This document shows positions 9,248 to 32,515 of a stretch of 43,447 bases of DNA, piece after piece (position 1 is the stretch's first letter; each line of letters opens with the position of its first letter). A program made the position numbers and the translations under genes. A model generated the notes under the pieces. The model was not told where the DNA came from. It saw only the letters and a list, made by a program, of their open reading frames with translations, and searched no databases. The DNA lies in assembly GCA_023260695.1 (NCBI GenBank), contig JALQUR010000053.1, positions 1-43,447 of the forward strand, given 5' to 3'. This DNA comes from Planctomycetaceae bacterium (GTDB lineage: Bacteria; Planctomycetota; Planctomycetia; Planctomycetales; Planctomycetaceae).

Positions 9248-9349
9248 ACCAATACTGAAATGACGAACCGGTCCGAGACCGACGCTCGAACAATCCACTC
9301 CCTGCCGCACAACAACCTGGCGAATCAGACCTGCACGGAACCAGACTCC

Positions 9350-13055: not shown

Positions 13056-14687
13056 TCACAATGCAGCTGGCATTAACTGCTCGCGACGACATGGAAGCGG
13101 CTGGTCCGTGGTATCCTGACAGGCCACGCGACGTACAGGTCTGGAAGCTCCGTCAATCACCAGCCTCCGTCGAAGCATCGGCCCTCCGGCTTCACGAAAA
13201 ACAATCAGTTCCGTCTGAAAGACGTCACCCCCAGCAGTCAATTCCGGAAAGACCTTACGAAAGTCCTCAATCGTCATGATACCACCACTCACCAGCCACA
13301 GCAGGGAATCGGTTTCGAAGGCAGTGCGTGACTCCCGCCCGGATACAATTGCCGCTGCAGCTTCTGCTGTCAGCCCCGGGATGGCCCGCAGCACAACCTG
13401 ATCCGCAAGCATCAGCTGAATACGACCTTCTGTTCGAGGCTGTGTGTCGGTCGTCACGGCATCACACAGCTGATTGAACAGAATGCCAGCATCCGGGAGC
13501 TCAGACCGCAGCGGACTGGGCAATGGACCGCCGGCAGCAGCAGGGCGATTCACCGTCGCATCAATGACTTCTGCCAGTGAAGCGATCGGGAAAAGTCCAT
13601 CTGCTGCAGCCGGAACCGCAGCACTCTGCAGACCATAGGTTCGTGCAGCAATCAGAAAGTCAATGACCGTTGCCGGCAACAACCCGCTCAGCTGTGACTG
13701 CAGCTGCTGCGGATTCGTCTGATTCAGCGAAACCTTGTTCTGCCCGTCACGACGAAGGGAGCTCTCGGCGGACCACAGCGTCAGCAACTCCGCCAGACCA
13801 CGCACATCTGCGCCGCTGTCACTCCTCTGACCCACCAGATCCGGGGTTATCGACAGCTCTGCTGAATCGCCACTGAGCAATTCATTCCCGGCACTGACAA
13901 CAGCCTGAGGATCACCTGGCATCCCTGCTGCATCAGACTGAAGCAGCCCTTCCCTGCTCTGACTGCCATACAGAATTGCTGGAGTAATCCCGCGCACAAA
14001 CAGGAGTTCCTGCAGATCGACTGGCACTGAATTGGCGCATCGATAGGGAAACGGCAGCGACGAATAGTACTCCGACTCGGCTCCGAATTCGCGCACCGTC
14101 TCATCACTGTCCATCCAGTCCAGCAGAGAATCAGCAATCACTGGTGTCACGCCGGGAAGCTGCAGCAACGCTTCTCGTCCCGCTCCCGGAGAAGCCTGCT
14201 CCCATTGCAGTACACGTCCCGGATGCAGACGCGCTGATTCGTTGCTCAGCCCGAATCTGATTGTGGTTGCACCGTCCGCCGCTCGAGCGGAATTCACTGC
14301 CGAAAACCTCCAGATGTCACGTGTTTCCGGACCAGGACCTGACGGTAACAGCTGAGTCGAGACTTCCGTCGCCCCACCTGTTCCGCTGACCGGGGCAACC
14401 AGTCGCCCCAGAAACAGGTCCGGATTCTGTGTTGCACCGCCCAGCTGTTCTCTGCGCAACTGTGGCAATCCGACCAGCCATGTCACCTGCGATTCGGCGG
14501 CTGCCAGCGTTGCATGCGCCTGCAGCAGATTCCCCCGCAGAACCGTCGCTTCGTATTCGGTGGACATTGCCCCCAGGAACCCGAATCCGGCGAATGAAAC
14601 CATCATCACAACCACCAGCACAATGATCAGCACTACACCTGCCCGATCACATTCCCGTCCCTGCCACCACCGGCCAGCACGCTTCAT
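13056..14687 (-). CDS. gspK: T2SS minor pseudopilin GspK
   Basis: 543-residue protein with a short leader and a hydrophobic N-helix (RAGVVLIIVLVVVMM, about 16-30). As is usual for GspK, the Glu at position +5 of other pilins is absent. The large periplasmic part contains helix-hairpin-helix-like segments (LQLPGVTPVIADSLLDWMD; VVLRAIPGLTAEAAAAIVSG), typical of GspK. GspK caps the pseudopilus tip with GspI and GspJ. At 543 residues it is longer than the roughly 320-residue classical GspK. The start codon overlaps the gspJ stop by 4 bp. Confidence 0.9.
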   Translation of the reverse strand: MKRAGRWWQGRECDRAGVVLIIVLVVVMMVSFAGFGFLGAMSTEYEATVLRGNLLQAHATLAAAESQVTWLVGLPQLRREQLGGATQNPDLFLGRLVAPVSGTGGATEVSTQLLPSGPGPETRDIWRFSAVNSARAADGATTIRFGLSNESARLHPGRVLQWEQASPGAGREALLQLPGVTPVIADSLLDWMDSDETVREFGAESEYYSSLPFPYRCANSVPVDLQELLFVRGITPAILYGSQSREGLLQSDAAGMPGDPQAVVSAGNELLSGDSAELSITPDLVGQRSDSGADVRGLAELLTLWSAESSLRRDGQNKVSLNQTNPQQLQSQLSGLLPATVIDFLIAARTYGLQSAAVPAAADGLFPIASLAEVIDATVNRPAAAGGPLPSPLRSELPDAGILFNQLCDAVTTDTQPRTEGRIQLMLADQVVLRAIPGLTAEAAAAIVSGRESRTAFETDSLLWLVSGGIMTIEDFRKVFPELTAGGDVFQTELIVFREAGGPMLRRRLVIDGASRPVRRVACQDTTDQPLPCRREQLMPAAL

Positions 14688-16018
14688 GGCAGCCCTCCTG
14701 GATGCAGATAACCCAGCAGCTCTGCATCGGAAGTCAGAGTCAAAGGAGAACTTCCGCGAATGGTCTGCAACGGAACAATAAACTCATGCCACTCCAGCGG
14801 CGGGAATTCAGGTTCGGCCGACGTCCTTTCAGCACCGTCGCTCGAGGCATCTGCTGGCGTCTGCGGAGCCGACGTTCCGCTGCCACCACCAAATGCCTGC
14901 CGCACTGACTCGAGGTCGCGACTTTGACACATCAGCAGTCGCACCTTCACGGCAATCGGCAATTCCCTGCGACCATCGCTGTTCCACGTGTCCAGCCACT
15001 GATTACCGTCGTAATAACTCAGTTCAAGACTGATCACTTCCGGGATCAGTTCCACCCGTGGACGCATTGCCACAGGAAGCAGACTTGCCGGCGGGAGCTC
15101 ACTCTCGTAAGCACCCGGACCTGCGCTGATCAGTTGCTGTGGAAACAGTTCCTGGAGCAGTTGTTCGAGGTCCGGGACGCCGGCTGTGCGGGCATCAGGA
15201 TCTTCCACAGCAATTGCCTGCAGTAACAACTGATCACACTCAATCCGACATAATCCCGATGGCAGATAAGACTGTTCACTCCCAGCCTGTATCCACGGCT
15301 GAAAAATCCAGAGCACAACCTTCTTTCCCGTTGGGATGATTGTCATGGCCCCCGCTGTACCGGCATCATCCAGCCCGTCTGCATTCATCCCGGGCAGAAC
15401 GGAAAATCCGGAATTCAGCTCTCCGGCGCCGGTACCGAATTCCAGAGAACCGGCGTCAGCAGAAGTAAGATCAATGCTCTGACCGGCCGACAACTGATCC
15501 AGTTCGGCAGGAGTTCCTTCCCTTCGCAGACGCAGACTGTCGATCGATCCCAGCAGGGATGTCCTCAGCGGGGGAAAGCTGCCCCCAGGCATTCCCAGAG
15601 CAATTCGGACCCGGTCGACGTCTGTCATGATCTCCGCGGGAGCAGCGAACAAATCCAGTACCTGTTCCTCCGCAGCGTCCTCAATACCAGTTTCCGATTC
15701 GCTCAGTACATCCTCAGCAAACTTCACCTGCAGTCCACTCCCTGCAAGCGAGGTCTGCTGAAGATCATCCTGCAGCAGCTGCAGCAGGCTGCGGAGCAGT
15801 TGCCGATCTTCACTCTGCTGTCGCCCTGCCGTGAGATAACTGCTGTACAGCGACAGCATGGACCAGATCAGCGTCATCAGTACTGACGTCAGCAACGAAG
15901 CAATCAGTACTTCAATCAATGTGAATCCAGCACGCCCCGCGGCGACAGCCCAGCTCGTGTGAACCAACCGCGACCGGCCTTCAGGTCCCTGATTCAGGTA
16001 CTCCGGCGCGACCTTCAT
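14684..16018 (-). CDS. gspJ: T2SS minor pseudopilin GspJ
   Basis: 444-residue protein. A long leader of about 30 residues ends in a type IV prepilin cleavage motif (AGRAG/FTLIEVLIASLL), followed by the N-terminal helix. GspJ joins GspI and GspK in the tip complex. The size is roughly twice that of classical GspJ; the excess includes acidic and Gly-rich stretches (LDDAGTAGAMTI and a Ser/Gly/Ala stretch around 395-415). Position and order next to gspI and gspK support the call more than similarity in the globular domain, which I cannot test. ATGA overlaps on both sides. Confidence 0.85.
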   Translation of the reverse strand: MKVAPEYLNQGPEGRSRLVHTSWAVAAGRAGFTLIEVLIASLLTSVLMTLIWSMLSLYSSYLTAGRQQSEDRQLLRSLLQLLQDDLQQTSLAGSGLQVKFAEDVLSESETGIEDAAEEQVLDLFAAPAEIMTDVDRVRIALGMPGGSFPPLRTSLLGSIDSLRLRREGTPAELDQLSAGQSIDLTSADAGSLEFGTGAGELNSGFSVLPGMNADGLDDAGTAGAMTIIPTGKKVVLWIFQPWIQAGSEQSYLPSGLCRIECDQLLLQAIAVEDPDARTAGVPDLEQLLQELFPQQLISAGPGAYESELPPASLLPVAMRPRVELIPEVISLELSYYDGNQWLDTWNSDGRRELPIAVKVRLLMCQSRDLESVRQAFGGGSGTSAPQTPADASSDGAERTSAEPEFPPLEWHEFIVPLQTIRGSSPLTLTSDAELLGYLHPGGLP

Positions 16019-16617
16019 GGATTCTCTCCCGCTGAGGGTGCCACCGGAAAAACAGAATCGGGCGAACGCAGATCCAGTTCCTGAAACGCTCCCTGTTCCG
16101 GCTCACCTGCAATCCACTGCGTCAGACTGAATCGCTGCCGTCGTTGCTGCTGCTGATCTCCCTCAGCAACTTCCACAGTCAGACTCCACATGCCAGGCTG
16201 TGCCGGCAATGCTGCAATCCTGACGGAATAACGAAACTCCGGCGTTCCTTCAGCAGCACCAGCAGGTTCTTCGCGCAGAGATGTCTCACCAGCCAGTGTA
16301 CTCCCGCCAGTGCTGATCGTCGGCGGCAGCCGCAGTTGCTCCCACGGAGCGTCCTCAATCATCCCTGCCGAACGCTCACCAAGCAGAATCTCCTGCATCG
16401 TCTGCTGACAGACCTGCTGCAGTTCCGTGCGGACTGCAGCACGCACCGCCTGTTCTCTCCCCATCCCTGCCAGACGAGAGAGCACCACTGCACTGCCCAT
16501 CAGCAACGCCGTGGCGATTACCACTTCCATCAGGGAAAAACCCTGCCGCCGCGGATTTGCCCGCTCCCGCCAGGCACACTTCCCTGGCCTGCACGCTGGC
16601 CGGATCAGAAAAATCAT
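16015..16617 (-). CDS. gspI: T2SS minor pseudopilin GspI
   Basis: 200-residue protein with a 25-residue leader rich in Arg and Cys, then the prepilin motif (RQG/FSLMEVVIATALL) with Glu at +5. The globular part is short, followed by beta-strand-rich sequence (PEFRYSVRIAALPAQPGMWSL). Size and place between gspH and gspJ fit GspI, the pseudopilin that nucleates the tip complex. Both ends overlap neighbours by 4 bp (ATGA). Confidence 0.85.
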   Translation of the reverse strand: MIFLIRPACRPGKCAWRERANPRRQGFSLMEVVIATALLMGSAVVLSRLAGMGREQAVRAAVRTELQQVCQQTMQEILLGERSAGMIEDAPWEQLRLPPTISTGGSTLAGETSLREEPAGAAEGTPEFRYSVRIAALPAQPGMWSLTVEVAEGDQQQQRRQRFSLTQWIAGEPEQGAFQELDLRSPDSVFPVAPSAGENP

Positions 16618-17432
16618 GGCGCAACCTCGTTTGTTGCCGCCGCAGCATCAGCACCTGCATCAATCACCGGAGTCTGCAGGGGGCGGTAAGGATCACTCAC
16701 CACTGCCATCGCAGTCAGACTACGAACGGAAACATCAACCACAAAGTCTCTGCTGCCACCAATCTGAATCACGTCGCTGGCCGATGCTCGCCCTGACGGA
16801 GAGAAACGCACACTCCGCCAGGCGACCGCCGCTACAGCCGCATCCACCGCCGCAGGCTCCTCCGCTGCCACTGTCACCTCGGAATCACCTGTTCCGGCAA
16901 ACTGCGTCCCGTCCGGCAGGAGCCCTGCACGCAGCAACCCTGAAGTCTGCTGGTCGCCGGGCAACAACTCGGCATCCGCAGCAGTCTCCAGTTCCACCAA
17001 CGGCGTCTCCGCAGCGATGTCAGCAGACGCACCAGCAGCGTCACTGATCACGGTGACGGCAGCAGCAGTCGCAGCAACAACCTCCACAATCTGAAATCGT
17101 CGTCCGCCGGGCTCCCACTGAAACTCCACTGCCCTGCCGTTGCGGATAGCCAGCGATCGCGCCTTTGCCAGCGATTCCTGAGTGACTGCTCCCGCGCGAC
17201 GAATCCTGGCCTTGTCCAGCGGTCCGCGGACACTCGGCAGAATCATTCCCGCAAGTCCCGCCAGAATCGCCATCACGATCAGCAGCTCTGCCAGCGAATA
17301 CCCGAGCTCACAACGCGTCCGCAGCCGCTGCCGGTACAGACGCAGCCCCGCTTCACCTGCACACTTCAATTCAGGCGTGCAGGCCCCTGGCAGATACCGA
17401 ACGCTGTGGATTTGCGCCCTCATCACTCTCAC
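16614..17432 (-). CDS. gspH: T2SS minor pseudopilin GspH
   Basis: 272-residue protein with a long N-terminal extension of about 43 residues before the prepilin motif (CELG/YSLAELLIVMAILAG), with Glu at +5. The helix is followed by RKARIRRAG-type sequence and a beta-rich globular domain (RNGRAVEFQWEPGGRRFQIVEV), as in GspH/FimT proteins. A strongly Ala-rich loop (about 112-185) enlarges it relative to classical GspH. The ATG overlaps the gspG stop by 4 bp. The long leader could mean a later start, but the overlap supports this one. Confidence 0.85.
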   Translation of the reverse strand: MRVMRAQIHSVRYLPGACTPELKCAGEAGLRLYRQRLRTRCELGYSLAELLIVMAILAGLAGMILPSVRGPLDKARIRRAGAVTQESLAKARSLAIRNGRAVEFQWEPGGRRFQIVEVVAATAAAVTVISDAAGASADIAAETPLVELETAADAELLPGDQQTSGLLRAGLLPDGTQFAGTGDSEVTVAAEEPAAVDAAVAAVAWRSVRFSPSGRASASDVIQIGGSRDFVVDVSVRSLTAMAVVSDPYRPLQTPVIDAGADAAAATNEVAP

Positions 17433-17980
17433 TCATCCGATGCTCCGGATCCACTGCCGTCGCCAGTCCAGCTGACGATGTCATCGTCAGTGTTCTCCTG
17501 GCCATCCGGGCCAAAGGACCAGATATCCGGCAAATCCAGACCATTGTGAGTCGGCGGATATTCGTAGCTGTAGGCATTACCCCACGGGTCCCTGGGCAGC
17601 GTCTCGGTCTTCAGATAAGGCCCATCCCAGGAACTTCCGGAACCACCCGCAGTCGCGCCACTGTCCTCGCCCTCAGCACTGGCACCGCCATCGCCGGACG
17701 GCTCAGAAACGAGCGCCATCAGTCCCTCTTCGGATGCAGGAAACCGATTCATATCGACTGCGAATCGCTCCAGCGCTGACTGGAACATGCCAATCTGCGT
17801 CTTCACAGAATTGATGTCCGCCTTCTGCTTGCTGCCCAGAAGTCGCGGTCCGATCATCGACACAAGCAGTACCAGAATCGCCATCACAATCAGCAGCTCT
17901 GTCAGCGTAAAGCCGGCTCGCCCTGCCGTTGAAACCATCACAGAAGATCGACGCTGTTTATTGGTACACACTAATCGCAT
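17429..17980 (-). CDS. gspG: T2SS major pseudopilin GspG
   Basis: 183-residue major pseudopilin. A leader ends in the cleavage motif (GRAG/FTLTELLIVMAIL, Glu at +5). The family signature follows: ALERFAVDMNRFPASEEGL, then DGPYLKTETLPRDPWGNAYSYEYP and the C-terminal calcium-site region (WSFGPDGQENTDDDIVSW). An acidic Gly/Ser-rich insert of about 20 residues (SGDGGASAEGEDSG) sits before the DGPYLK motif. The ATG at 17980 is chosen over an in-frame GTG at 17983 because AAAGGA lies about 7 nt upstream. It heads the tightly coupled gspG-to-gspK block, 124 bp after gspF. Confidence 0.95.
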   Translation of the reverse strand: MRLVCTNKQRRSSVMVSTAGRAGFTLTELLIVMAILVLLVSMIGPRLLGSKQKADINSVKTQIGMFQSALERFAVDMNRFPASEEGLMALVSEPSGDGGASAEGEDSGATAGGSGSSWDGPYLKTETLPRDPWGNAYSYEYPPTHNGLDLPDIWSFGPDGQENTDDDIVSWTGDGSGSGASDE

Positions 17981-18073
17981 CACAGTTCCTTTCAGTAATC
18001 TGCAGGCTGAATCGTCCCTGCGATTCCCGCTCTCAGTCCATGGAGGACAGATTTATCCACACATTAGCCCAAC

Positions 18074-18104: not shown

Positions 18105-19313
18105 TCAACTCATCGACGTACTCATTTCGAACACAGGCAGCAGCAGCGCAACAATCACAAACAACACCGCGCTGCCCATCACCATCAGCAGTGCCGGTTC
18201 AATCAGACGCACCATGGTGTCCAGCTGCCTGGCCACCTTCTTATCAATGCCGTCTGCAACACTTGCCAGCACTGTTTCAAGATTGTTCGCCTCTTCCGCG
18301 ATGCTGATCATGGCCATGATTCCAGGCGGGATGAGTCCGCAGCGGGCGAGAGGCGTTGAAAGTGCTTCACCAGCAGAGATGTTCTCTGCCGAATTCCGGA
18401 TCGCCTGCCCCAGAACCACATTTCCGGCCGAGTCACTGCTGATCTCCAGCGCCTTCAGCATCGGCACACCATTTCTCAGCAGCGTCCCCAGAATTCGACA
18501 AAACCTGGATACCGCTCCATTCAGAGCGATCGGGCCGAAAACGGGAACCTGCGTTCGGAAACGGTCCAGCAGCTCGCGCCCACGGACAGAGCTGCACCAG
18601 CGTTTGAACCCGTACAGAATTCCGCCCAGGGCAAGCAGCAGCAGCAGACCGTAACGTCCCAGTGTATCACTCAGCCACAGCAGCAGGATCGTCGGCATCG
18701 GAAGTGTCCCCGCCCGCTCAAGCTCAGCAAACAGATCGGCAAACTTCGGAACAAAGAACACAATCAGAATCAGTGTGACTGTGCTGCCTGCAATCGCCAG
18801 AAATGCCGGATAGGCCATCGCGCCGCGGACCTTTGCTCGCAGCTCCTCCTGCCGTTCCAGAAACTCCGCCGTCTGCTGCAATGCCGATTCCAGAAATGCT
18901 CCCTCTGTTCCTGCACGAACGATGGACAATGTCAGGTCACCGAAAATGTGTCGATGCATGGCCATCGCTTCATGCAGCTGTCGGCCGTCCGCAACCCGAG
19001 TTCGGATATCTGACAGTACTTCACGCATCGTCTCCTGCGGGGTCTGCTGAGCAAGCAGGTCCAGTGCATGCAGCAGTGGCACGCCATTCTGCAGCAGATC
19101 AGAGAGCTGCGTCAGCGTCGCCCCCAGAACTTCTGTACTCACTCCGCGACGGAACTGCAGCTTCAGAAGCGGCTGCCGCGCCGGAGCAACACTGAGCGGA
19201 TACAGCGATTTCCCGGCCAGCATGGTCATCACGTCGTTACGTGAATCAGCCGTAATCAGACCCTTGACGTCCTGACCTGCCATGGTTCGGGCGGTGTAGG
19301 AGAACTCCGGCAA
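18105..19313 (-). CDS. gspF: T2SS inner-membrane platform protein GspF
   Basis: 402-residue polytopic inner-membrane protein of the GspF/PilC family. Two homologous cytoplasmic T2SSF domains (about 65-190 and 265-390) are separated by membrane helices (about 170-190 and 222-240), and a last helix lies at about 370-392. The family motif AYPAFLAIAGS precedes the first helix. The start is a TTG codon: it is the first codon of MPEFSYTARTMAG-type family sequence, and AGGGA lies about 6 nt upstream. The gap after gspE is 102 bp. Confidence 0.95.
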   Translation of the reverse strand: MPEFSYTARTMAGQDVKGLITADSRNDVMTMLAGKSLYPLSVAPARQPLLKLQFRRGVSTEVLGATLTQLSDLLQNGVPLLHALDLLAQQTPQETMREVLSDIRTRVADGRQLHEAMAMHRHIFGDLTLSIVRAGTEGAFLESALQQTAEFLERQEELRAKVRGAMAYPAFLAIAGSTVTLILIVFFVPKFADLFAELERAGTLPMPTILLLWLSDTLGRYGLLLLLALGGILYGFKRWCSSVRGRELLDRFRTQVPVFGPIALNGAVSRFCRILGTLLRNGVPMLKALEISSDSAGNVVLGQAIRNSAENISAGEALSTPLARCGLIPPGIMAMISIAEEANNLETVLASVADGIDKKVARQLDTMVRLIEPALLMVMGSAVLFVIVALLLPVFEMSTSMS

Positions 19314-19415: not shown

Positions 19416-21125
<1,710 letters not shown>

Positions 21126-21432
21126 GGATGTGATGATCCTGAGCCGACAACGGGAAGGATGCGCCGGCAATACAAAGGTGGGATATCTGGCGGGACTACG
21201 AATGATGGACAGAATGTCACTGCCCAACCGCAGCAGGAAGGATTCTAGAAGGCCAATTCGACCCCTTCAATAGCCTGTTTGAGTCAGACACACGTGACAA
21301 TCCATAATGCCCCGTTTTCGTCAGTTTTGAGGGCTGACGCATGCCGAAAATCGGCAGTAAAATCAGTATTTTCAGTATTTTTGTTGTAATCCGCAGCTGT
21401 CCGGTTTGCTCACCGAATCCGAGAATCTCAGG
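21126..21432. other. Intergenic region between the giant N-domain gene and gspE
   Basis: 307 bp without a supported gene. It holds an AT-rich stretch (about 21355-21390) and a short TGCCGA-AAA-TCGGCA inverted repeat around 21342-21356. The spacing is much larger than elsewhere in the T2SS run, so gspE may have its own promoter here, but no convincing -35/-10 pair stands out. Confidence 0.4.
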
Positions 21433-24400
21433 CTACTCGTCCAGAACATCACCGAGGATCTGCATCACACGGCGGGAATTCACTTTTTGCAGCGGAATCA
21501 GGCGGATACCACGAGCTCGAGAGTCGCGAGCAGACTCATCCAGTCGAGACACCAGTTCCTGCAATTCCTCAATCAGAGCCTGAGGTGCTTTCACAACCAG
21601 AGAATTGGTTTCCTGCTGCACCTCAATTGTCAGCAGCGGTGCTGAATTACGGGCATTCAACTGCCGCAGAACACTCGCCACCTCAGCATCAATGCCGGCA
21701 GGAATCGTTACCGGTCGCCGGTTTCCACCTGCTGCCAGTTCCGTCTGATAGACGCTCGAAAGCACGTCCAGAATCTGACCCGCCGATGCGTATCGCACCG
21801 CTATCACCTCTGTCCGAAAGACGCGGCCCGAATCCGGGACCTTCTCTGAATCCAGAACCTCAAGCAGCTGTTCGATCCGCTCGCGATCAATTCTGTTGCC
21901 GTAAACCAGAAGTGCATTCAGACGCGTCTCCGGCACCAGCACCACAGATCCAAAAGCCAGCCGACCCGCCGGACTCTCATAGATCGCTTCCACCGTTTCC
22001 GCCACATCTTCAGCACCCGCATTGCGGAGCTGATAAATCGCAAAGTCCCGACTTCTGCGAACTCCCGAAACTGCTGCCAGGCTCTTCAGCAGACGCTCCA
22101 GCTGATCCAGCGCCGATTTGTCCTCAGAGACAATTGTCACGGTTCCGGATCCCGGGATGACAATCACATCGGCGGCCTCATCAGTTTCGATAACTTCATC
22201 AACGCTCTCATCTCCACTCTCATCAGCGGCAGATTCCAGCGCCGTCGGGATCACAGCGGATGAAAACGCAGGAACCTTCTGAAACTCAGCGCCTTCTTTA
22301 CTTCTGGCAGGATCTGTTCCACTCTGCGGACTCGACGGTGACGCCTGTGGGGCCAGCTCACCAGGCCGCAGAATACGAATTCGATTCTTTCGCAATGAGG
22401 GCCAAAGGTTTTCGATCCTGCGAACAGTCTCCTCCGAATCACCGGGAAACGGAATCACTCGCATCGATGATCCACTGCGGCGACCAGCCGAGCTGCCTGC
22501 AGCGATACCCGGCTCACCCATCTGTGACAACAGGTCACGAATCTCCGTGATCTGACGCGGAGTTGCTCGAATCAGAATCTGTTCAAGGTCCTCATCTGCC
22601 TGCACGATCGGTCCGCTGTACCGCGTTCGCCGTGAATAAGGCGAACTTGAGGAAGAACCTGAGGAAGAACGGGAGGAATAGCTGGACGGAGCTCCGAACA
22701 GGCCCTCAATCGCATTCACCGCTGCATCAGCCGACAGGATCGTAAGCTGTATCACAGCCGTCTCGCGCTCGTCACTCTCCTGAAATCGCTCTGTGACCAC
22801 TCGAGCTTCAGCCTGACCAGCGGCGTTGGCAGAAACGATCATCTGCTGCGTGGAGTCTTCCCAGGAAACACTCGCCCCTTCATCAACAGCACGCAGTGCC
22901 CCCTGAATCACCTCCAGCACCGTATCTCCATCCACTCCCGGCAGAGAATAAACCTCGATCGACCTTGGCATTTCCGCTGACACCGGAGGTTCCATTTCCT
23001 GCACCAGTCCAGCAATCATCTCGTGCTGCTGCGGGCGAGCCACCACAAGCAGAGAATTGCTGCCGGAATCATAGGAAACTCGAACATTGTCCGTTCGACC
23101 AAACATGGTCTGCAATGCCAGAGCTATGGTCTGGCCATCTGCCGTACGCAGCCGATAGGACCGCGGCACAGCGGCGTCAGCTCTGCCCTCACGACTCATC
23201 ATCTGAGAAACAACTTCCTGAATCGTCTCATGCTGCTCAGGTGTCGCAGTAGCCACCAGCACCTCGTCAGCAGCATCCGTCACCAGCACGGCATCCGGCA
23301 TCAGTCGCTCCAGAACTTCCTGAGCTTCATCCGCTTCATATGGTCGCAGCCAGTAACTCTGTGTTTTCAGTCCATCACCCGGAGCTCCGGTGGATGCCAG
23401 CATCTGCCCGACAAGTTCCCGCACCGCAGCCATCTTTCCAGACGGTGCACTGACAAACAGCTGCCGGCCAATACGGTCCGGTGTGACCCGTGCACCCGCT
23501 GGCAGCAGTGGCTGGAGTGCTTCCTGCACCGAGAGTGCATCCATTCGATTCAGTCGAAAGACCGCCAGCTCATGCGGCTCAACAGACTCACCGGGTACAT
23601 CAAGTTCAGCAATCAGTTCGGCGATGGACACGTGCTGATCTTCCCGAGCAAGAACGATCAGACTGCCGGTTTCAGCACTGATAGTCGCGCGCACGTTGTC
23701 ATAGCGGTTGTACATCGAATCAAGCAGATTGCGGACCGTCTCTGCATCCACACTCTGCAGTTGGTAGATCTTCGGCTGCGGCCGAATTGCTCCGGTAGAC
23801 GTGCCTCGCATCTGTGACGCCACCTGCTCAATCGTCTCATGCTGAGCTTTGGTCGCGGTAGCCACGATCATCTTGCGATCGGCATCCGTCACAATCGTGG
23901 CATCGGGAAACAATGCCAGCAGCACTTCCTGGACCTCATCAGCATTGGGAGCACCGACAACGTATGATCTGGTCTCACGATCGCCACTGTCCGCGAGTCC
24001 GGCTGTAATCGATTCGACAAGGCTTCTGACCTCTGCCTGCCGATCAACAGGAACCCGCACAAACAGCTGCCGGCCACCCGGATCAACGGTCAGCTGCACT
24101 CCAGTATCGACCAGCGGCTGCAGCACACGCAGCACTGCACTCGCAGAACTGCCTCGCAACGGATACACGTCCAGTACCTTCTCTGTCCGAGCTGGACGAA
24201 CCTGCTGCAGCTGCTGCAGCAGTTCAGCCACCTGAATATGCTCAGCGTCCGTAGCGACAATCATCAGCTGATCAGCATGAGCCCCGATACTGATTGACGC
24301 CGCCGGAACGGCAGCCTGCAATACCGTTGTCGCATTCCCTCCGAGGTCGTGGATGGAGTAAAGTCGCAACGAACGATCACTTGAGAATGGCTGTTCCTGC

Positions 24401-26577
24401 TGCAGGCGTTCCAGCAATGCCCGAATCTCCGTGTCACGCTGCTGAGTCACCTGCGCCATCAGACGATTCCCCTCAGCCGTCAGTCGGAAACTGACATCCG
24501 ACCATGTGGAAGCAAGCAGGGCCTGCGTCTGAGCTGCGACCTGAGAATTCACCGGGTAGAACTGCAGTGATCGCTCTGTATCACCGGCGGCCTGCTGCAG
24601 TGTCTGCAGAGTCGTCACGATCTGCTGATGATCGTCTGCCGTTGCAATCACGCGGAGCCGATTCAGTGCTGCATCAAGTGTTACGACAGCCTGCGGAACC
24701 AGTGCAGACAAAGTACTGACCGCCGCTGCTCCCGGAGTATTCTCCAGCTCATAAAACTGCAGTTTCAGTTCGGAACCGGGAACCCGAATTTCATCCAGCA
24801 GCGCCGCGACACGGTTGTGGTCGTCCGGTCCCGCCATCACCAGCAACCGCCGATTCGTTGCATCAACAGTCACCGCTGCAGTGGGAATCTGAGTCGCCAG
24901 CATGGTGGTTGCCGTCGTCTGATTCAGTTGCTCCAGAGAATAGCTTTGCAGAGTTCGCTCCGCACGCTCTGCAGTTTCCACACTCTTCAGCAGCAGCTCC
25001 ACCTGAGCATGCTCTGCCGGTCGCGCCAGAATCAGCAGACGCGACCCGTTTGTGTCCGGAATAATCTGCACCTTCGGCAACACGGATGTCAGCAGGCTCG
25101 TCGCTGTCGTGGCAAACGCGGTACTCACCGGATAACCCTTCAGCTCCTGCTGCTGCTCCGGTGCTTCCGCATTCTGCTGCAGCTGCCGCAGCAGCTCAGC
25201 GACCCGCTGGTGATCAGCATCGCTGGCAAGCACAACCAGACCTCGACCAGCACTGTTCACCGTCACCCGCGCCGTGGGAACCAGTCCCGCCAGAATCGTG
25301 GAAACGGTTACCGCTCCGATATCCTCCGTCTCGTACACCACAACACGTGGCCCGGCACTCGTCTGATCCTGCAGCAATTGCTCCAGTGAGCTGCGGATCT
25401 TCTCCTGATCCGCGGCAGATGCCCACGCAATCAGTTTTCCTGCCGTGGCATCAACTCGAAACTGCCCCTGTGGCGCAAGCAACTGCAGAGTCGCGACCAG
25501 CTGCAGCGGGTCCGGAACAATTGCAGGGTATACCTGCAGAACAGGTCGAGCATCTTCACCCTGAGAGCTCTCCAGCTGCTCCAGCACCTTCTTTGCCGTC
25601 AGCTGAGCCTCCGCCGATCCGTAAACCGAAATCTGACCGGCAACAGCATCAACCACCACAGTCCCCTGGATCAGCTCCCGCAGGACTTCTCCCGCTCGAT
25701 CCGGATTCGCGTGCTGCGTCGGATAAACCACCAGCCGCGATCGGAGGTCTTCCGCGGGCTGTTCCGGCACAGCCTGCAGCACCGACTGCACGGCACGCAG
25801 ATTGAGGACCGTGTCTGCGACAAGAATCTGCTTCGTACCCGGCAGCAGTTCGGCCTTCCCGTACTTCCCCAGCAACGGAGTCACTTCTTCCATGATCGTG
25901 TCCGCAGGGCGGTCATTCAGCGGAAACAGTACACTCACAAAATCAAACCGTCCCCGCACCGGAAGTTCTTCCGGCACAACTCGCGGTATCGCGCCTTCCG
26001 GCAGGCCACCCTTCAGATCCAGACACATCAGCATCCGCTCGCGTCGCACCAGACTGAAGCCACGAGTGAGCAGCCAGCCATTCACCAGATCAATGGCCTG
26101 AGCCGGACTGTAGGAACTGGAGTCGGTATAGCTGAACACGCCCGGTGGCTCAGTATCCATGACCAGCGAAAGATCTGCCTCACTGGCCAGCCAGGCCAGA
26201 ACATCGGGCCACTTCTGAGCACGAAAACTGAACTTCAGCGACTTGCCGGAAAATAGTGTGTTGAAAAGACGCCGCTGATCTTCCGTGAGCGTCTGCAGCA
26301 ATCCTGCTTCCGCCGTCGCTGCTGCAGCCGCCTTCGCCTCATCAGTTGTTGCCGCCGCAACCGCCGCCTGCCGAGTTGCCAGAATCTGCAGCACCTGTCC
26401 CCGCTGTTCCGGTGACAGCTGGATTGAAGCCACAACATCACTGTCCGAAAGGCGCTCGATATTCGCTGCAAAGGCCGGAGCATCTTCTGACTGGGCACGC
26501 ACACTGCCCGGCAGCGACGCTGTGATGGCGATCGTGAGCACTGGCAGAAAAAACAGTCTTCGCAGAACTGACAACAT
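21433..26577 (-). CDS. Giant periplasmic protein with about 20 tandem secretin N-domain-like modules and no secretin pore
   Basis: 1,714-residue exported protein. A signal peptide (ends SVRAQ, residue 29) is followed by an Ala/Gln-rich helical segment (45-110), an N0/STN-like region (about 113-188) and then roughly 20 modules of about 58-65 residues from 210 to 1681, plus a partial one at 1690-1714. Each module follows the secretin N1 (Secretin_N) pattern: strand ending in Y or F, helix with LLxxLxP, strand, short turn with N or D, strand (LLVxAxxxxH), helix ending in LLxxL. Modules 800-996 and 1002-1200 form a duplicated three-module block. Ser-rich (1299-1316) and acidic (1450-1470) inserts lie in the C-terminal modules. 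No pore-forming Secretin domain follows. It lies between gspD and gspE on the same strand, so a periplasmic structural role in the T2SS is inferred; function unproven. Confidence 0.85.
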   Translation of the reverse strand: MLSVLRRLFFLPVLTIAITASLPGSVRAQSEDAPAFAANIERLSDSDVVASIQLSPEQRGQVLQILATRQAAVAAATTDEAKAAAAATAEAGLLQTLTEDQRRLFNTLFSGKSLKFSFRAQKWPDVLAWLASEADLSLVMDTEPPGVFSYTDSSSYSPAQAIDLVNGWLLTRGFSLVRRERMLMCLDLKGGLPEGAIPRVVPEELPVRGRFDFVSVLFPLNDRPADTIMEEVTPLLGKYGKAELLPGTKQILVADTVLNLRAVQSVLQAVPEQPAEDLRSRLVVYPTQHANPDRAGEVLRELIQGTVVVDAVAGQISVYGSAEAQLTAKKVLEQLESSQGEDARPVLQVYPAIVPDPLQLVATLQLLAPQGQFRVDATAGKLIAWASAADQEKIRSSLEQLLQDQTSAGPRVVVYETEDIGAVTVSTILAGLVPTARVTVNSAGRGLVVLASDADHQRVAELLRQLQQNAEAPEQQQELKGYPVSTAFATTATSLLTSVLPKVQIIPDTNGSRLLILARPAEHAQVELLLKSVETAERAERTLQSYSLEQLNQTTATTMLATQIPTAAVTVDATNRRLLVMAGPDDHNRVAALLDEIRVPGSELKLQFYELENTPGAAAVSTLSALVPQAVVTLDAALNRLRVIATADDHQQIVTTLQTLQQAAGDTERSLQFYPVNSQVAAQTQALLASTWSDVSFRLTAEGNRLMAQVTQQRDTEIRALLERLQQEQPFSSDRSLRLYSIHDLGGNATTVLQAAVPAASISIGAHADQLMIVATDAEHIQVAELLQQLQQVRPARTEKVLDVYPLRGSSASAVLRVLQPLVDTGVQLTVDPGGRQLFVRVPVDRQAEVRSLVESITAGLADSGDRETRSYVVGAPNADEVQEVLLALFPDATIVTDADRKMIVATATKAQHETIEQVASQMRGTSTGAIRPQPKIYQLQSVDAETVRNLLDSMYNRYDNVRATISAETGSLIVLAREDQHVSIAELIAELDVPGESVEPHELAVFRLNRMDALSVQEALQPLLPAGARVTPDRIGRQLFVSAPSGKMAAVRELVGQMLASTGAPGDGLKTQSYWLRPYEADEAQEVLERLMPDAVLVTDAADEVLVATATPEQHETIQEVVSQMMSREGRADAAVPRSYRLRTADGQTIALALQTMFGRTDNVRVSYDSGSNSLLVVARPQQHEMIAGLVQEMEPPVSAEMPRSIEVYSLPGVDGDTVLEVIQGALRAVDEGASVSWEDSTQQMIVSANAAGQAEARVVTERFQESDERETAVIQLTILSADAAVNAIEGLFGAPSSYSSRSSSGSSSSSPYSRRTRYSGPIVQADEDLEQILIRATPRQITEIRDLLSQMGEPGIAAGSSAGRRSGSSMRVIPFPGDSEETVRRIENLWPSLRKNRIRILRPGELAPQASPSSPQSGTDPARSKEGAEFQKVPAFSSAVIPTALESAADESGDESVDEVIETDEAADVIVIPGSGTVTIVSEDKSALDQLERLLKSLAAVSGVRRSRDFAIYQLRNAGAEDVAETVEAIYESPAGRLAFGSVVLVPETRLNALLVYGNRIDRERIEQLLEVLDSEKVPDSGRVFRTEVIAVRYASAGQILDVLSSVYQTELAAGGNRRPVTIPAGIDAEVASVLRQLNARNSAPLLTIEVQQETNSLVVKAPQALIEELQELVSRLDESARDSRARGIRLIPLQKVNSRRVMQILGDVLDE
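22978..23574 (-). repeat. Second copy of a three-module internal repeat in the giant gene
   Basis: Encodes residues 1002-1200. It corresponds module by module with residues 800-996: GRQLFV is shared in the first module, VTDA and ATATxxQHETI in the second, and NVR plus LIVLAR/LLVVAR in the third. Offset is about 202 residues. Confidence 0.75.
23590..24180 (-). repeat. First copy of a three-module internal repeat in the giant gene
   Basis: Encodes residues 800-996, the partner of the block at 22978-23574. Shared residues are listed there. The modules are more alike at the same phase between blocks than to their immediate neighbours, which points to duplication of a three-module unit. Confidence 0.75.
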
Positions 26578-27193: not shown

Positions 27194-27919
27194 ATGCGTT
27201 ACCTGTGCACCTTTCTGCTGCTGCTTTTCGCAACGGATTCCGCCATGGCACAGGGGATGTTTGGTCCCAGAAATCTGGGGCAGGGAATTTCCGGACGCTC
27301 GTCCACTCGTGGATCTTCCAGCAGATCTGCAGCCGATGACACAGAAGTCCTCAGCCCTTCCAGCTCACTGCAGGGACGTCGCTTCACTCGCGAAGCACGG
27401 ACAGCCGGGGACTTTGTGGGCGCTAATACTCAGAGTGAAGCAGCCGGAAATTTCGTCGGAGCCCAGTCCACTGCACAGACAGCCGTCGCTGCTGCCGTAG
27501 GAATCACTGAAACGGCCGTCGGAGGAACAAATCGCAGACGCGTGCTGCGGCCAGCGGGAATCTATGCCGAACGACTCACTCTGGCCCCTGAACTGCAGCA
27601 GTCCGCCACCAGTTTCAGTCTGCAGGATCTCGCTGCCCAGGAATCGGCCAGCGCTGTTGCTGTCTGGGCTGCGGCACAAGGGATTTCGTTGCAGGTGTCC
27701 GTCGACTCCCGACAGGCAGTACTCTCCGGGATTGTCCAGTCTGAAAAGGACCGGCAGACGGCGGAACTGCTGCTGTTGCTGGAGCCCGGTGTTGATCGAG
27801 TTCGGAATCAGCTGACCGTGGCATCCGCAACACTTCCGGAGCGAAGAGATTCTCCCCCGGTACCGCCTGTCCGTCGCCGTACACCGCCTCAGCGTCCACT
27901 GCTGCGTCCCGGTCCCTGA
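27194..27919 (+). CDS. Secreted BON-like domain protein within the T2SS locus
   Basis: 241-residue exported protein: signal peptide (YLCTFLLLLFATDSAMAQ), then a Gly/Ser/Arg-rich segment (30-65). Two copies of an FVGA motif follow (AGDFVGANTQSEAAGNFVGAQ region, split at about 73-92), then a linker. A C-terminal domain (about 150-215) ends in SVDSRQAVLSGIVQSEKDR and VDRVRNQLTV, which fits a BON domain; BON domains are small periplasmic or membrane-associated modules. The tail is Pro/Arg-rich. GAAGG lies about 9 nt before the ATG. It is the only plus-strand gene inside the T2SS cluster, divergent from the giant gene, and its 3' 305 bp lie antisense to the lipoprotein frame. Role unknown. Confidence 0.75.
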   Translation: MRYLCTFLLLLFATDSAMAQGMFGPRNLGQGISGRSSTRGSSSRSAADDTEVLSPSSSLQGRRFTREARTAGDFVGANTQSEAAGNFVGAQSTAQTAVAAAVGITETAVGGTNRRRVLRPAGIYAERLTLAPELQQSATSFSLQDLAAQESASAVAVWAAAQGISLQVSVDSRQAVLSGIVQSEKDRQTAELLLLLEPGVDRVRNQLTVASATLPERRDSPPVPPVRRRTPPQRPLLRPGP

Positions 27920-28700
27920 CCGCAGCGTCCTGCTGCAATCCCGTAAATCCAGTCAACGGCTCAGATCCCGTGCTGCCGCTACCGCGGAGATTCCGATTCA
28001 GAAAACCCGGCGGCAATGCAATTTCGGTAACGGATACAGATTCTCTCCCACCTGCAATCTGCCGCACTGCTTCCCGCTCTCCGGCAATGTCATCGGTGTA
28101 CGCTGCCTGAGTCACTGCTGAATTCTGCGTCTGTGACTGTGCTGCTGCATCCGCAGGTGCCTGCAGAGATCTCTGTCGCGCAAGTGATTCATAAAACTGA
28201 CTTCCGTCCCCGGGACCTGGCAGAACGACATGTGCGGGACTGGAAGTGAGTTCCGTTCCCTCCACACCCACAAAACGAGTCACCACGGTCAGGTGAGTAA
28301 TCGCACCTCCGGCCGCATCCCACGGCAACCAGAAACTATACGAATGCCCCATTCTGGAATGACTGTAATGCTGCTCCAGGTCGCCCGCAGGAAATACATA
28401 CTTGCGATCCGGGCTGCGCTGAGATGTCCCCAGACTGTCATCCCAGACGTAAACCACCAGCACGCCCTCCGTACGAATCGTGCGGTGCCGTTCCAGTCCG
28501 TAAAACATGACTCGTCCACCAACGCCTCGAGTTGCCGGTTCTCCCGCCTGGTGTAACACCGTATCAGACCAGACCGGAACCATCTGAGTGGCCACCCGCG
28601 GCTCATTGCGATTCCACCAGCTTCCGAGATTTGCACTGGGATTCACCAGCGAGCATCCGCTGCTGAGTACCAGCAGTATCAGGACAACGCAAAGTCGCAT
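27615..28700 (-). CDS. Predicted lipoprotein downstream of gspD
   Basis: 361-residue predicted lipoprotein: a short hydrophobic helix ends in a lipobox (LSSGC, Cys at about 16 from the ATG at 28700). The conserved-looking core (about 45-165) contains VMFYGLERHRTIRTEGVLVVYVWDD, PDRKYVFPAGDLEQHYSHSRMGHSYSFWLPWD and a beta-rich VTRFVGVEGTELTSSPAHVVLPG. The last 100 or so residues lie antisense to the BON-like gene, are Ala/Pro/Arg/Gln-rich, and may not be conserved. A lipoprotein beside gspD could be a secretin pilotin, but it does not resemble GspS or PulS by eye. An in-frame ATG at 28727 exists; 28700 gives a proper lipoprotein signal. 68 bp after gspD. Confidence 0.7.
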   Translation of the reverse strand: MRLCVVLILLVLSSGCSLVNPSANLGSWWNRNEPRVATQMVPVWSDTVLHQAGEPATRGVGGRVMFYGLERHRTIRTEGVLVVYVWDDSLGTSQRSPDRKYVFPAGDLEQHYSHSRMGHSYSFWLPWDAAGGAITHLTVVTRFVGVEGTELTSSPAHVVLPGPGDGSQFYESLARQRSLQAPADAAAQSQTQNSAVTQAAYTDDIAGEREAVRQIAGGRESVSVTEIALPPGFLNRNLRGSGSTGSEPLTGFTGLQQDAAVRDRDAAVDAEAVYGDGQAVPGENLFAPEVLRMPRSADSELDQHRAPATAAVPPSAGPFQTGQSRRVLPVGSRRTPATKSLVPQPRQQQRWPIPGQRDPAD

Positions 28701-28768
28701 CCGTCTTCTTTCTCTCGCAGGTCCCATGCTCTGCCCTCAGTTCCCATCATTCAGCACAGGTCTTCGAA

Positions 28769-31700
28769 TCAGGGCCGCTGTGGCGGCAGTTCCTGAATCG
28801 TACTCGGTCGCACACCCGGCATGACTCGTGGACCTGACCCTGGCCGAATCCGCCTTATCGGACCGCCTCTCATACCGGGCAGGTACCGTCCTGAAACACC
28901 GCTCTCCGGCACTGCAGAATCGCGATCTTCAGTTCCCTGTGGAGCGGTTTCCGGGACCGCCGTCTGCTCTGACAAAGCTGAGTCATCCGGCCATTCTTCG
29001 GCTGCTGGTACCGATGGTGGCTGAGGCGGCTGGATCGGAACTGCCGGCTCCTGTACTGGCTGCAGTACACCGGATTCTTCCATACTGCGAATCCCGGGCG
29101 TGCGGTCCGGATAGATCACTGGTATCTCGTCACCACCCGTTTCACTGCTGACCGGCATTGCCGGGTTGAGCCAGTCGAACACATCCGATGTGATCCATGA
29201 CATGCGAGCCATTTCGACCTGCTTCATCATCTCCTCTTCGGCAGCATTACGGATGACATGCGGCGTCAGAATGATCAGAAGTTCCTTACGCACACTGGAG
29301 GTGCCGTCGTAACGAAACAGGTTGCCTACCAGCGGCAGATCTCCGAGCCATGGAACACGACGTGAGGTGGACCGATTGTCTGAACTGATCAGACCACCAA
29401 TCACAATTGTCTGGCCACTGGCAGCACTGACTGTTGTCTGTGCTGTCGCAATGTTCACCCGCGGCGAACGAATCACCTCGCCATCAGAAGAAACCGACAC
29501 GGGAATCCCGTCGATCTCAGACCCCACATCTGATTTCTCGGCATCCACTTCCATCACAACCATGCCGTCAGGACTGATACGTGGGGTCACACCAAGAATC
29601 AGGCCGACGTTTTCCAGCTCCACGCTGTTGACCTGACCGACCTGAGTAATGCTGGTTCCAACGATTCGCGGAACTTTTTGCCCCACCTGAATGAATGCAG
29701 GCTGATTGTCGAGCGTCATTACCTGTGGCCGGCTCAGAATCTCCAGATTGCGGGACTGATTCATCGCTCGCAGCAGCAGGCTGATATTCTCACTGCTGGC
29801 GGCAAGTACCAGTCCTCCGAATTCCGTATCTGCACTTGTACGCCCAAGGCTGAAGTGCGACAGCGCCTGGCCGGCCACGTTTGCACCACCAGCCAGAGCA
29901 GCTGCAGATCCGGAATTGCCGAGCGCTCTGTTGTTGAAATCAAATCCCGGGGTCAGAGCGCTGTAGCCGGATGCAGGAGCCGGAAGAATACTGCCCAGCA
30001 GACTTCGATCAAACAACAGCGAATCCTGCAGCCCCAGCTCTACTCCGAACTCATGCATGTTGTCCAGAGTGACTTCGGCAAGGATCACCTGAATCATCAC
30101 CTGTGGTGGCTGTTCATCCAGTCCATCCACCAGTTCAATGATCTGCTCAAAGTAACGTGGGGTTGCACTGATGATCAGCGTGTTCCCCACCGGCTCCGGA
30201 ACCACAACCACTTCGGATTCGATCTGCGTGAATGGATTCTGACGTCCCGGTGCTGACAGGTTCACTACCCGTTCGCTGCGGAGAAAGTTGTTGACCGCAT
30301 TGGCCACATCCAGTGCCGGCGAATTCTTCAGTCGGTAAACTCGGTTGATCCGTTCCTGTGTGCCCGCTTCATCAAGCCGCAGCAGCAGCACTTCAACAAT
30401 CCGCAGATCACCCGACGTTCCGGTCGCGATAATACTGTTGGTCCGAATATCAACTGAAAATCGAACCGGTACCAGTGATGATTCTCCTTCAGCCGTCGCC
30501 AGTTGAGGCACCGCTGCCCCGACAGCTTCCGGAAACAGTGATCTGAGCACCTGCACGAGGTCAGATGCATCCCCATTTCGTATCTGAAACACCTTCAGCT
30601 GTGCTGATGTCGCCGGATTCTCATCCAGCGTGCGAATCAGCTCTTCGATCAGGGGCAGCGTTTCCGGTGGCCCCGTCAGAAAGATTCTGTTGGTCCGTGA
30701 ATCCGGAGTCAGATTGATGTCCTCCAGCAGGCCGGAAGCAACAATCTTCCGCCCGTCAGGCCCGGAGAGCAGCATCTGCAGAGCCGCATTACGCTGAACT
30801 CCTGTCCCGCCGCGAGCTGCCTGCAGCGCGTTGTTGACAGTTGTGGCAACATCGATTGCCAGAGCATTCCTGAGCACAATGATCCGCGCCTCATTCACCG
30901 ATCTGGAAGTCTGCCCGTCCAGCCGGGAAATCAGTAATCGTACTTCCGCCAGATCCCGCGGTGCAGCATTGATCACCAGCGAGTTTGTGCGGGTGTCTGA
31001 GGTGACCGTGACTTCCGGACTGAGCCCTCCCCGACTGGCGAAGAACTCTGTAATCAGCGTCTCAACCTGTGCAGCGCTGGCAAACTCCAGTGGAAAGACC
31101 TCCAGCTGCGTCTCCGGTTCGACTGCCTCGTCAAGCCTTCGAATCAGTTTCCAGGCCGCCTCCACAGCTTCGCCCCAGCCAACCAGCAGCAAAGCATTCG
31201 GCTTGACCAGAGGCGTAATTGTGACCCGCCCCTGGAGAGGCCCGGTGAGATCTTCGAGCACTTCGTCAATCACCTCATTGAGGGCATCACCGCGGACATT
31301 TCGCAGATAGACCACTTCAATTTCCGGTGTCGTGAGCTGACTCAGACGTTCGATTTCCTCGATGATCTGACTGAGTTCCGCAATATCCGGATCTCTGCCA
31401 CGCAGGATCATCACGTCCAGATCCGGAAGTGTCTCAACAGCAACATCCGCAGAGGGCCGTTTCATCAGCGGCGCAGCGGCACCCTGATCCGGGGCTGCAT
31501 CTCGGCCCGATAGTTCGTCACCTTCCTGCCACGCCGCAGGCTGAACTCGGCCTCGCACGCTCCCGGAGCGACTCTGCTGCGGAATCGCCGGCAGTGGCTC
31601 TTCATCAGACTCGGAATCTGCATCTCCGGACTGATTCCAGAGTTGTACGGCGCGCTGCACGAGCACACCCTGAGCATCCGACAGACTCACGATCTTCACA

Positions 31701-32515
31701 GCCTGCTCTGCATTCTGAGTCGCCGAATCTTCCAGACACCGAAACAGCCGTTGAAACTGCTCAGCAAGAACACCATCTCCAGCCAGCTCACAGATATTCT
31801 TCCTGTGATCAAACTTCAGAAACAGAGTACGTTCCGTATCACTCACAAAGCTGAACATGCTGCCTTTTCGTTCGATTGCCGGCCCCAGCAGACCTGGCAG
31901 CAACTGCTCTGACCGCAGACTGTCCAGCAGACCGAATCGATATATCTGACGTCCCATGGCGGCGGGTTGTTCCGTCGGCCTCGAAACAGGATCAGGAGCC
32001 TGTTCAGCAGACTGAATGTTTCGCGCCTCAACAGAATTCCCTGACGACGCAGTCAGTACTGTCTGAAACTCTTCGTGTACCGCCGCCGTGGCCAGCACGT
32101 GAACACTGCTACCCGCTGCATCCAGAGCAATTCGAGCTCGGCTCCCCATCTGCTGACGCAATGCTTCCACTGCAGACTCGGCAGCTCCCGGAGACAGCGG
32201 ATAACTCCGCAGCACGGCAGCAGCCTCTGGCTTTGCCGCCGGTGCAGGAGGCCGCTGCATTCGCTGCAGCAATTGTGCAGTGAGTACATGAGCCGTCTGT
32301 GGTCCTGAAACCAGTAATTCACCCCGCTCTGAATCAACCAGAACCCGAGTTTCCTCCGCCTCACGTCCGAGCAGTTCGAGAATCATTCGCTTTGCTTCAG
32401 CGGCATCCACACCAGTTGCTGCGTAGGTACGGAATTCACGTGTTTCCTGGGCGTATGCAGTGCTGCTCAACAGCAGCAGCAGAAACAGAGTCCTTTGCAG
32501 GAAGGGGATTTGCAT
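28769..32515 (-). CDS. gspD: T2SS outer-membrane secretin GspD with expanded N-domain region
   Basis: 1,248-residue secretin. After the signal peptide (FLLLLLSSTAYAQ) come about nine N-domain-like modules (approximately 25-85, 101-158, 189-262, 272-391, 397-463, 469-535, 541-632, 638-716, 724-801), against four in classical GspD. The third and fourth are degenerate or split by an acidic insert. The secretin C-domain spans about 803-1090: LEILSRPQVMTLDNQPAFIQVG, NVGLILGVTPRIS and the signature VPWLGDLPLVGNLFRY with LLIILTPHVI. A Pro/Glu-rich, then Pro/Arg-rich tail of about 150 residues follows, where the pilotin-binding S-domain would be expected. The ATG at 32515 is chosen for its signal peptide; an upstream frame to 32668 lacks one. 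Confidence 0.95.
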   Translation of the reverse strand: MQIPFLQRTLFLLLLLSSTAYAQETREFRTYAATGVDAAEAKRMILELLGREAEETRVLVDSERGELLVSGPQTAHVLTAQLLQRMQRPPAPAAKPEAAAVLRSYPLSPGAAESAVEALRQQMGSRARIALDAAGSSVHVLATAAVHEEFQTVLTASSGNSVEARNIQSAEQAPDPVSRPTEQPAAMGRQIYRFGLLDSLRSEQLLPGLLGPAIERKGSMFSFVSDTERTLFLKFDHRKNICELAGDGVLAEQFQRLFRCLEDSATQNAEQAVKIVSLSDAQGVLVQRAVQLWNQSGDADSESDEEPLPAIPQQSRSGSVRGRVQPAAWQEGDELSGRDAAPDQGAAAPLMKRPSADVAVETLPDLDVMILRGRDPDIAELSQIIEEIERLSQLTTPEIEVVYLRNVRGDALNEVIDEVLEDLTGPLQGRVTITPLVKPNALLLVGWGEAVEAAWKLIRRLDEAVEPETQLEVFPLEFASAAQVETLITEFFASRGGLSPEVTVTSDTRTNSLVINAAPRDLAEVRLLISRLDGQTSRSVNEARIIVLRNALAIDVATTVNNALQAARGGTGVQRNAALQMLLSGPDGRKIVASGLLEDINLTPDSRTNRIFLTGPPETLPLIEELIRTLDENPATSAQLKVFQIRNGDASDLVQVLRSLFPEAVGAAVPQLATAEGESSLVPVRFSVDIRTNSIIATGTSGDLRIVEVLLLRLDEAGTQERINRVYRLKNSPALDVANAVNNFLRSERVVNLSAPGRQNPFTQIESEVVVVPEPVGNTLIISATPRYFEQIIELVDGLDEQPPQVMIQVILAEVTLDNMHEFGVELGLQDSLLFDRSLLGSILPAPASGYSALTPGFDFNNRALGNSGSAAALAGGANVAGQALSHFSLGRTSADTEFGGLVLAASSENISLLLRAMNQSRNLEILSRPQVMTLDNQPAFIQVGQKVPRIVGTSITQVGQVNSVELENVGLILGVTPRISPDGMVVMEVDAEKSDVGSEIDGIPVSVSSDGEVIRSPRVNIATAQTTVSAASGQTIVIGGLISSDNRSTSRRVPWLGDLPLVGNLFRYDGTSSVRKELLIILTPHVIRNAAEEEMMKQVEMARMSWITSDVFDWLNPAMPVSSETGGDEIPVIYPDRTPGIRSMEESGVLQPVQEPAVPIQPPQPPSVPAAEEWPDDSALSEQTAVPETAPQGTEDRDSAVPESGVSGRYLPGMRGGPIRRIRPGSGPRVMPGVRPSTIQELPPQRP

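Follow-up and report, generated by a model that had tools for sequence, protein, structure and literature searches.

A planctomycete type II secretion locus with a nine-module GspD-like secretin and a separate array of N modules that carries the N0 domain

What kind of secretin does a planctomycete type II secretion operon encode when some nine N-like modules precede the barrel and a neighbouring gene carries an array of further modules? The window examined here is the whole 43,447-nucleotide stretch of contig JALQUR010000053.1 (Planctomycetaceae bacterium, assembly GCA_023260695.1). We favour, with a probability of roughly 0.7, a type II secretion system (T2SS) with an unusually long secretin distributed over two genes, in which GspD would form the outer end and the array, with N0 and 19-20 modules, the inner end. 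What was seen directly, and what this reading builds on, is the domain content, the fold of N0, the operon, the co-occurrence of the two genes and the existence of single-chain relatives. The secretin gene itself is organized as follows.

28769..32515, minus strand: GspD-like secretin of 1248 aa, with signal, nine N modules, barrel, helix and Pro-rich tail, and no N0
residues ~29-87: module 1 (AlphaFold2)
residues ~101-158: module 2 (AlphaFold2)
31721..31957, minus strand, residues ~187-265: module 3, N-type with one additional beta hairpin (AlphaFold2 strands and helices; missed by the profile)
31331..31702, minus strand, residues ~272-395: module 4, split by a disordered insert (AlphaFold2; second half matched by the profile)
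31442-31621, minus strand, residues ~299-358: disordered insert inside module 4 (pLDDT ~30)
residues ~398-462: module 5 (AlphaFold2)
residues ~470-533: module 6 (AlphaFold2)
residues ~542-632: module 7 (AlphaFold2)
residues ~639-721: module 8 (AlphaFold2)
residues ~723-800: module 9 (AlphaFold2)
29246..30103, minus strand, residues ~805-1090: secretin domain (Pfam PF00263, AlphaFold2, Foldseek)

The reading frame and start given by the first-pass annotation hold, with an ATG at 32515 and a Sec-type signal. Pfam recognizes seven Secretin_N stretches (209 bits) before the barrel and one Secretin match (PF00263, residues 917-1089, 155.2 bits against a cut-off of 27.5); the same scan of E. coli K-12 GspD returns three Secretin_N stretches plus N0. 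In the AlphaFold2 model (residues 24-1145, 43 sequences) nine beta-alpha-beta-beta-alpha units precede the barrel, the first following the signal and all being of N type, and GspD chains rank top in a Foldseek search with this model (5zdh, E 3.4e-27). The models of GspD and of the array are monomers of moderate confidence (pLDDT 68-70, pTM 0.27-0.35), in which the geometry between modules is not reliable.

When GspD, the array and one of the giant secretins described below were each shuffled 100 times, our own module profile gave no match of at least 5 bits; it gave none in five other proteins of the window and one in the reversed array. As this profile was trained on the window proteins and their relatives, its counts are partly circular, and the claim of modules therefore leans on Pfam and AlphaFold2 and that of specificity on the shuffles; GspD modules 3 and 4, like the first module of the array, go undetected by the profile in its second version. 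Since the AlphaFold2 units, Pfam and the specificity of the profile agree, the earlier count of roughly nine N-like modules was right (seven by Pfam, nine by AlphaFold2), and a protein with just four N-domains is not what was found. The proposal that an acidic insert splits the fourth module was likewise borne out, the insert being a mildly acidic stretch of about 60 residues with a net charge of -5. The third module, previously described as degenerate, is a normal unit in the model, apart from one additional hairpin.

One could imagine that the additional modules are decayed or spacer duplications devoid of a structural role, and among 14 aligned proteins modules 1-3 are indeed the least conserved part of GspD before the tail. 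However, modules 5-9 of the same alignment contain many invariant residues, all nine modules keep the fold and the long form of GspD recurs in many genera, so we give this idea very little credence. GspD is long, but not as a peculiarity of one genome: 75 complete relatives measure 1038-1513 aa (median 1283), and on the sequences compared the long form is the norm of the lineage.

The end of the protein and the gene behind it comprise three further features.

29168..29245, minus strand, residues ~1091-1116: conserved helix of 26 residues after the barrel, where the S-domain would begin (AlphaFold2)
28772..29167, minus strand, residues 1117-1248: disordered Pro-rich tail of GspD, Pro/Glu first and Pro/Arg last
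27615..28727, minus strand: lipoprotein gene with lipobox Cys25, candidate pilotin-like protein or secretin accessory (position, conservation)

The C-terminal 150 residues had been described as rich in Pro/Glu and then Pro/Arg. This stands for the last 132 (Pro 19.7%, Glu-rich and then Arg-rich) but not for the start of the region, which is the conserved helix, with R1104 invariant among the 14 aligned proteins. The helix remains where an S-domain would start and may be a reduced S-domain. Tails of at least 50 aa beyond the helix position are present in 73 of the 75 relatives, with a median Pro content of 17%; a sequence search of solved structures (PDB) with the last 162 residues of GspD gave no match. 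The pilotin family PF16549 has no match in the window's own genome. In 72 of 75 loci the lipoprotein gene comes after gspD; of the three loci that lack it there, two (L116, L117) are at contig ends. Its lipobox Cys is invariant in all 21 aligned family members; Pfam and PDB searches with this family returned no relative. The lipoprotein is possibly a substitute for the pilotin, which is a guess from its position.

Ordinary GspD starts with N0, and N0 contacts GspC. In the window's GspD no match to N0 (PF21305) was obtained in Pfam up to E = 1, and our own N0 profile found none on the GspD of the 75 complete relatives. The N0 of this locus is encoded by the array gene, which lies in the operon between the gspD-lipoprotein pair and gspE.

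21433..26577, minus strand: secretin-less array of 1714 aa, with signal, helical segment, N0, 19-20 N modules and a half-module
26014..26253, minus strand, residues 109-188: N0 domain of the array (fold comparison)
21436..21516, minus strand: C-terminal half-module of the array, a strand and a helix

Fold comparison with N0 of ETEC GspD (4jtm) by VIA-align gave a Z of 11.8 and an rmsd of 2.1 over 80 residues. Pfam PF21305 does not reach the N0 of the array, and this assignment therefore rests on fold comparison and on our own N0 profile, which also recovers the Pfam-supported N0 of another locus (L204). Taken as a membership check, the N0 fold is followed by N modules: the order is N0-N1-N2 of the GspD type, and XcpQ N0-N1-N2 tops the Foldseek list. 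Pfam detects 15 Secretin_N stretches in the array and no secretin domain. The modelled part (residues 213-1196) contains 15 regular modules; beyond it the profile adds four more, and one split candidate is unscored. All 30 complete arrays end in a half-module, supported by partial profile matches in 14 and recognized by eye alone in 16. The earlier estimate of close to 30 N-type modules for the locus proves correct, as it contains nine in GspD, 19 supported in the array (20 with the unscored split candidate), N0 and the half-module. A side observation concerns the helical segment before N0 (26248-26460, minus strand), which carries the motifs LSPEQ and LTEDQ and which we take to resemble LTxxQ proteins.

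The remainder of the operon is that of a T2SS.

19416..21227, minus strand: GspE ATPase (TIGR02533, 627.7 bits)
18105..19313, minus strand: GspF (Pfam and NCBIfam)
17429..17983, minus strand: GspG major pseudopilin (PF08334)
16614..17432, minus strand: GspH-like minor pseudopilin (weak match)
16015..16617, minus strand: minor pseudopilin in the GspI position (N_methyl only, below cut-off)
14684..16018, minus strand: GspJ (PF11612)
13056..14687, minus strand: GspK (Pfam and NCBIfam)
11508..13019, minus strand: GspL-like protein (position, conserved neighbourhood; weak PilM-like match)
10618..11511, minus strand: protein in the GspM position (position alone; no family match)

GspD is thus encoded alongside GspE, GspF, GspG and GspK, as befits T2SS membership. 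With the N0-N1-N2-N3-secretin-S proteins GspD, PulD and XcpQ it shares the barrel, the Secretin_N modules and an operon with GspE, F, G, J and K. Unlike them, it has nine N modules, no N0 and a Pro-rich tail, its N0 belongs to the array, a distinct protein that adds 19-20 modules of its own, and GspC (PF11356) was detected in none of 59 genomes, the E. coli and Caulobacter controls being positive. In NCBIfam it matches TIGR02517 (type II gspD) best, with 330.4 bits, slightly short of the curated cut-off of 351.35. The protein works like a type II secretin, yet it departs from GspD in N0, GspC and the curated score, and we class it as a variant member of the secretin superfamily.

Do GspD and the array belong to one structure? 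Two genomes of another family encode single chains (L038, 3240 aa; L039, 3269 aa) in which N0, 24-26 module matches and the barrel follow one another, and the same lipoprotein gene comes directly after both. L038 residues 138-2151 align with array residues 112-1713 in two overlapping segments, and residues 2282-3054 with GspD residues 355-1112 at 42% over 780 residues. At the join, the half-module of the array is followed by about 120 residues, after which the second half of the split module 4 of GspD completes it. Single chains of 2137-2328 aa occur in two genomes of a third family, and four genomes of family f3 with a frame of 2138-2331 aa have one N0 match each, inside that frame. Because single-chain relatives carry both parts, we regard the array and GspD as one architecture.

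Another possibility is that GspD alone makes a nine-ring secretin and that the array, a mere neighbour with related domains, serves a different process. The outer end of GspD is complete, and the array gene need not lie beside gspD: it is present in only 14 of 80 fetched stretches, many of them truncated, and in one single-contig genome (G035) it is 3.4 Mb away. However, the fusions, the presence of N0 on the array and not on GspD, and the position of the array gene in the operon argue against this, as does co-occurrence. Both a long GspD (E <= 1e-67) and an array-type N0 (E <= 1e-3) were found in 51 of 59 genomes and neither in the other eight, although the N0 count includes N0 borne by GspD of a sister type, so that "array-type" does not always mean a separate gene. 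Seven of the eight genomes without the pair belong to one family, and the pattern therefore reflects few independent events. In a draw of 148 genomes from the phylum, 19 had a GspD match (E <= 1e-40), and all 19 also had an N0 match. We consider an array unrelated to the secretin quite improbable.

A more serious rival accepts the association and casts the array as a periplasmic ruler or flexible tether and not as a stack of rings: a few copies would connect the GspD ring with the platform in the inner membrane, at a distance set by the number of modules. In its favour, the array is a protein of its own that appears to be soluble, and complete arrays of the window's type vary widely, from 12 to 30 modules by the census profile. 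Against this, two relatives have the array and the barrel in one chain. Barrel-bearing secretin chains form 12-15-mers, and the array part of the fused relatives would therefore be present at ring stoichiometry. Moreover, the pitch of the array modules (~65-70 residues, with short linkers) resembles that of GspD N1-N3. We judge the tether rather unlikely.

Under the two-gene secretin that we prefer, the array would assemble as rings, much as other secretins do with their N regions, and these would stack coaxially with the GspD rings into one conduit across the enlarged planctomycete periplasm. N0 of the array would point towards the inner membrane, the orientation it has in ordinary GspD, and the half-module probably meets GspD near the split module 4, in a handshake suggested by the join of the fused relatives. 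Substrates would be pushed through the channel by the pseudopilus, with GspE as its motor. Secretin rings have a pitch of 2.5-3 nm, and about 29 of them would give a tube of ~70-90 nm.

Still longer single-chain secretins exist. Within the draw of 148 genomes, four of one genus (G059, G082, G127 and G171, of which G127 is a single contig) encode them; their frames of 4605, 4623, 4624 and 5073 aa contain 44-45 module matches; as N0 of the 5073-aa frame begins at 533, its start is probably placed too early. Pfam alone finds 39 Secretin_N stretches in the 4605-aa protein. A fifth giant, from G139, has 4213 aa and 42 module matches, and all five adjoin gspK- and gspL-like genes. Such giants of ~4200-4620 aa, with 42-45 module matches, occupy the loci L198 (3719-17536), L199 (3065-16936), L200 (2308-17529), L201 (3727-17601) and L202 (3096-15737), in other planctomycete families. 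Hydrazine synthase, sought as a check on an anammox origin of the giants, gave 0 of 6 in a search in which no control was matched either, and this result carries no weight.

Did the two genes arise by fission or by fusion? In a tree of the last module plus barrel, rooted on K-12 GspD, the single-chain forms fall outside a 26-row clade (support 84) that holds all sampled two-gene forms. This tree, a quick search of 41 chosen rows with moderate support, favours, as far as these sequences go, fission of a long ancestor. The N0 tree, from which ten loci were omitted as near-copies or fragments, along with two partial rows that were duplicates, is largely without resolution. The fission reading is complicated by the sister type (G018, G021, G024, G030), in which N0 is still present on GspD and a short array has five module matches and a Gly/Arg tail; for these reasons the sister-type pair is not a simple split. 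Two sister-type operons (L178, L181) run array-E-F-...-K-L-(M)-D; in them the array as well as GspD bears N0, and the tail of the array is rich in Gly/Arg.

Among known systems, the injectisome secretins InvG and MxiD belong to the same fold family by Foldseek; they have a shorter N region, and the operon here is a different one. An extended stack of N domains is shared with PilQ of Thermus thermophilus, whose six rings come from one 757-residue chain, compared with ~29 modules in two chains here and 42-45 matches in the single-chain relatives. PMC5745081 describes Thermus PilQ as 13-fold, with six rings and 350 A long, and calls it one of the largest characterised; a 2016 survey gives an average secretin length of 555 +/- 151 aa (PMC4827864). 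Our search of open-licence papers found no report of long or split planctomycete secretins. Set against the six N rings of Thermus PilQ, which were reported as unusual, an architecture in which two genes share ~29 N modules, or one chain has as many as ~45, widens the known range of secretins several-fold.

A long secretin offers a route across a very wide periplasm, and that of planctomycetes can be greatly enlarged, according to PMC5394234. The same paper describes crateriform structures of Planctopirus limnophila that join the outer and cytoplasmic membranes press-stud fashion and bear 12-nm fibres, and PMC8303584 likens periplasm-spanning structures of two planctomycete strains to the Thermus pilus machine. 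The long secretin is, speculatively, a natural candidate for the crateriform structures. We propose, as a tentative idea with the odds against it, that tubes of ~29-45 rings (~70 to over 110 nm), built of two proteins via a split module completed in trans or of one chain of 4200-4620 aa, may be the core of these structures, pinning the outer to the cytoplasmic membrane and emitting the fibres. However, craters are also described at sites where the cytoplasmic membrane is near the wall (PMC5394234), and these need not suit a 70-nm tube. The genes reported here would be candidates for the crateriform-structure protein complexes imaged in planctomycetes, a phylum with a genetically tractable species. 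In P. limnophila, cells stayed viable when three pilQ-like genes (Plim_0794, Plim_3284 and Plim_3688) were deleted, according to PMC11958385, which prints the genotype of the triple mutant with Plim_3281.

Three more loci of this kind lie elsewhere in the window's own genome (L197, L196 and L002, on contigs C597, C77 and C267): another long GspD, this one bearing N0 itself, another array, and a secretin frame of 790 aa that also has N0. The additional GspD and the additional array both run off contig ends. Directly upstream of gspD in the window lies a gene for a protein with a sulfatase-modifying-factor (FGE) domain (33379-34464, minus strand), and two adjoining M16 peptidase genes (7994-10585, plus strand) lie past the downstream end of the operon and are oppositely oriented.
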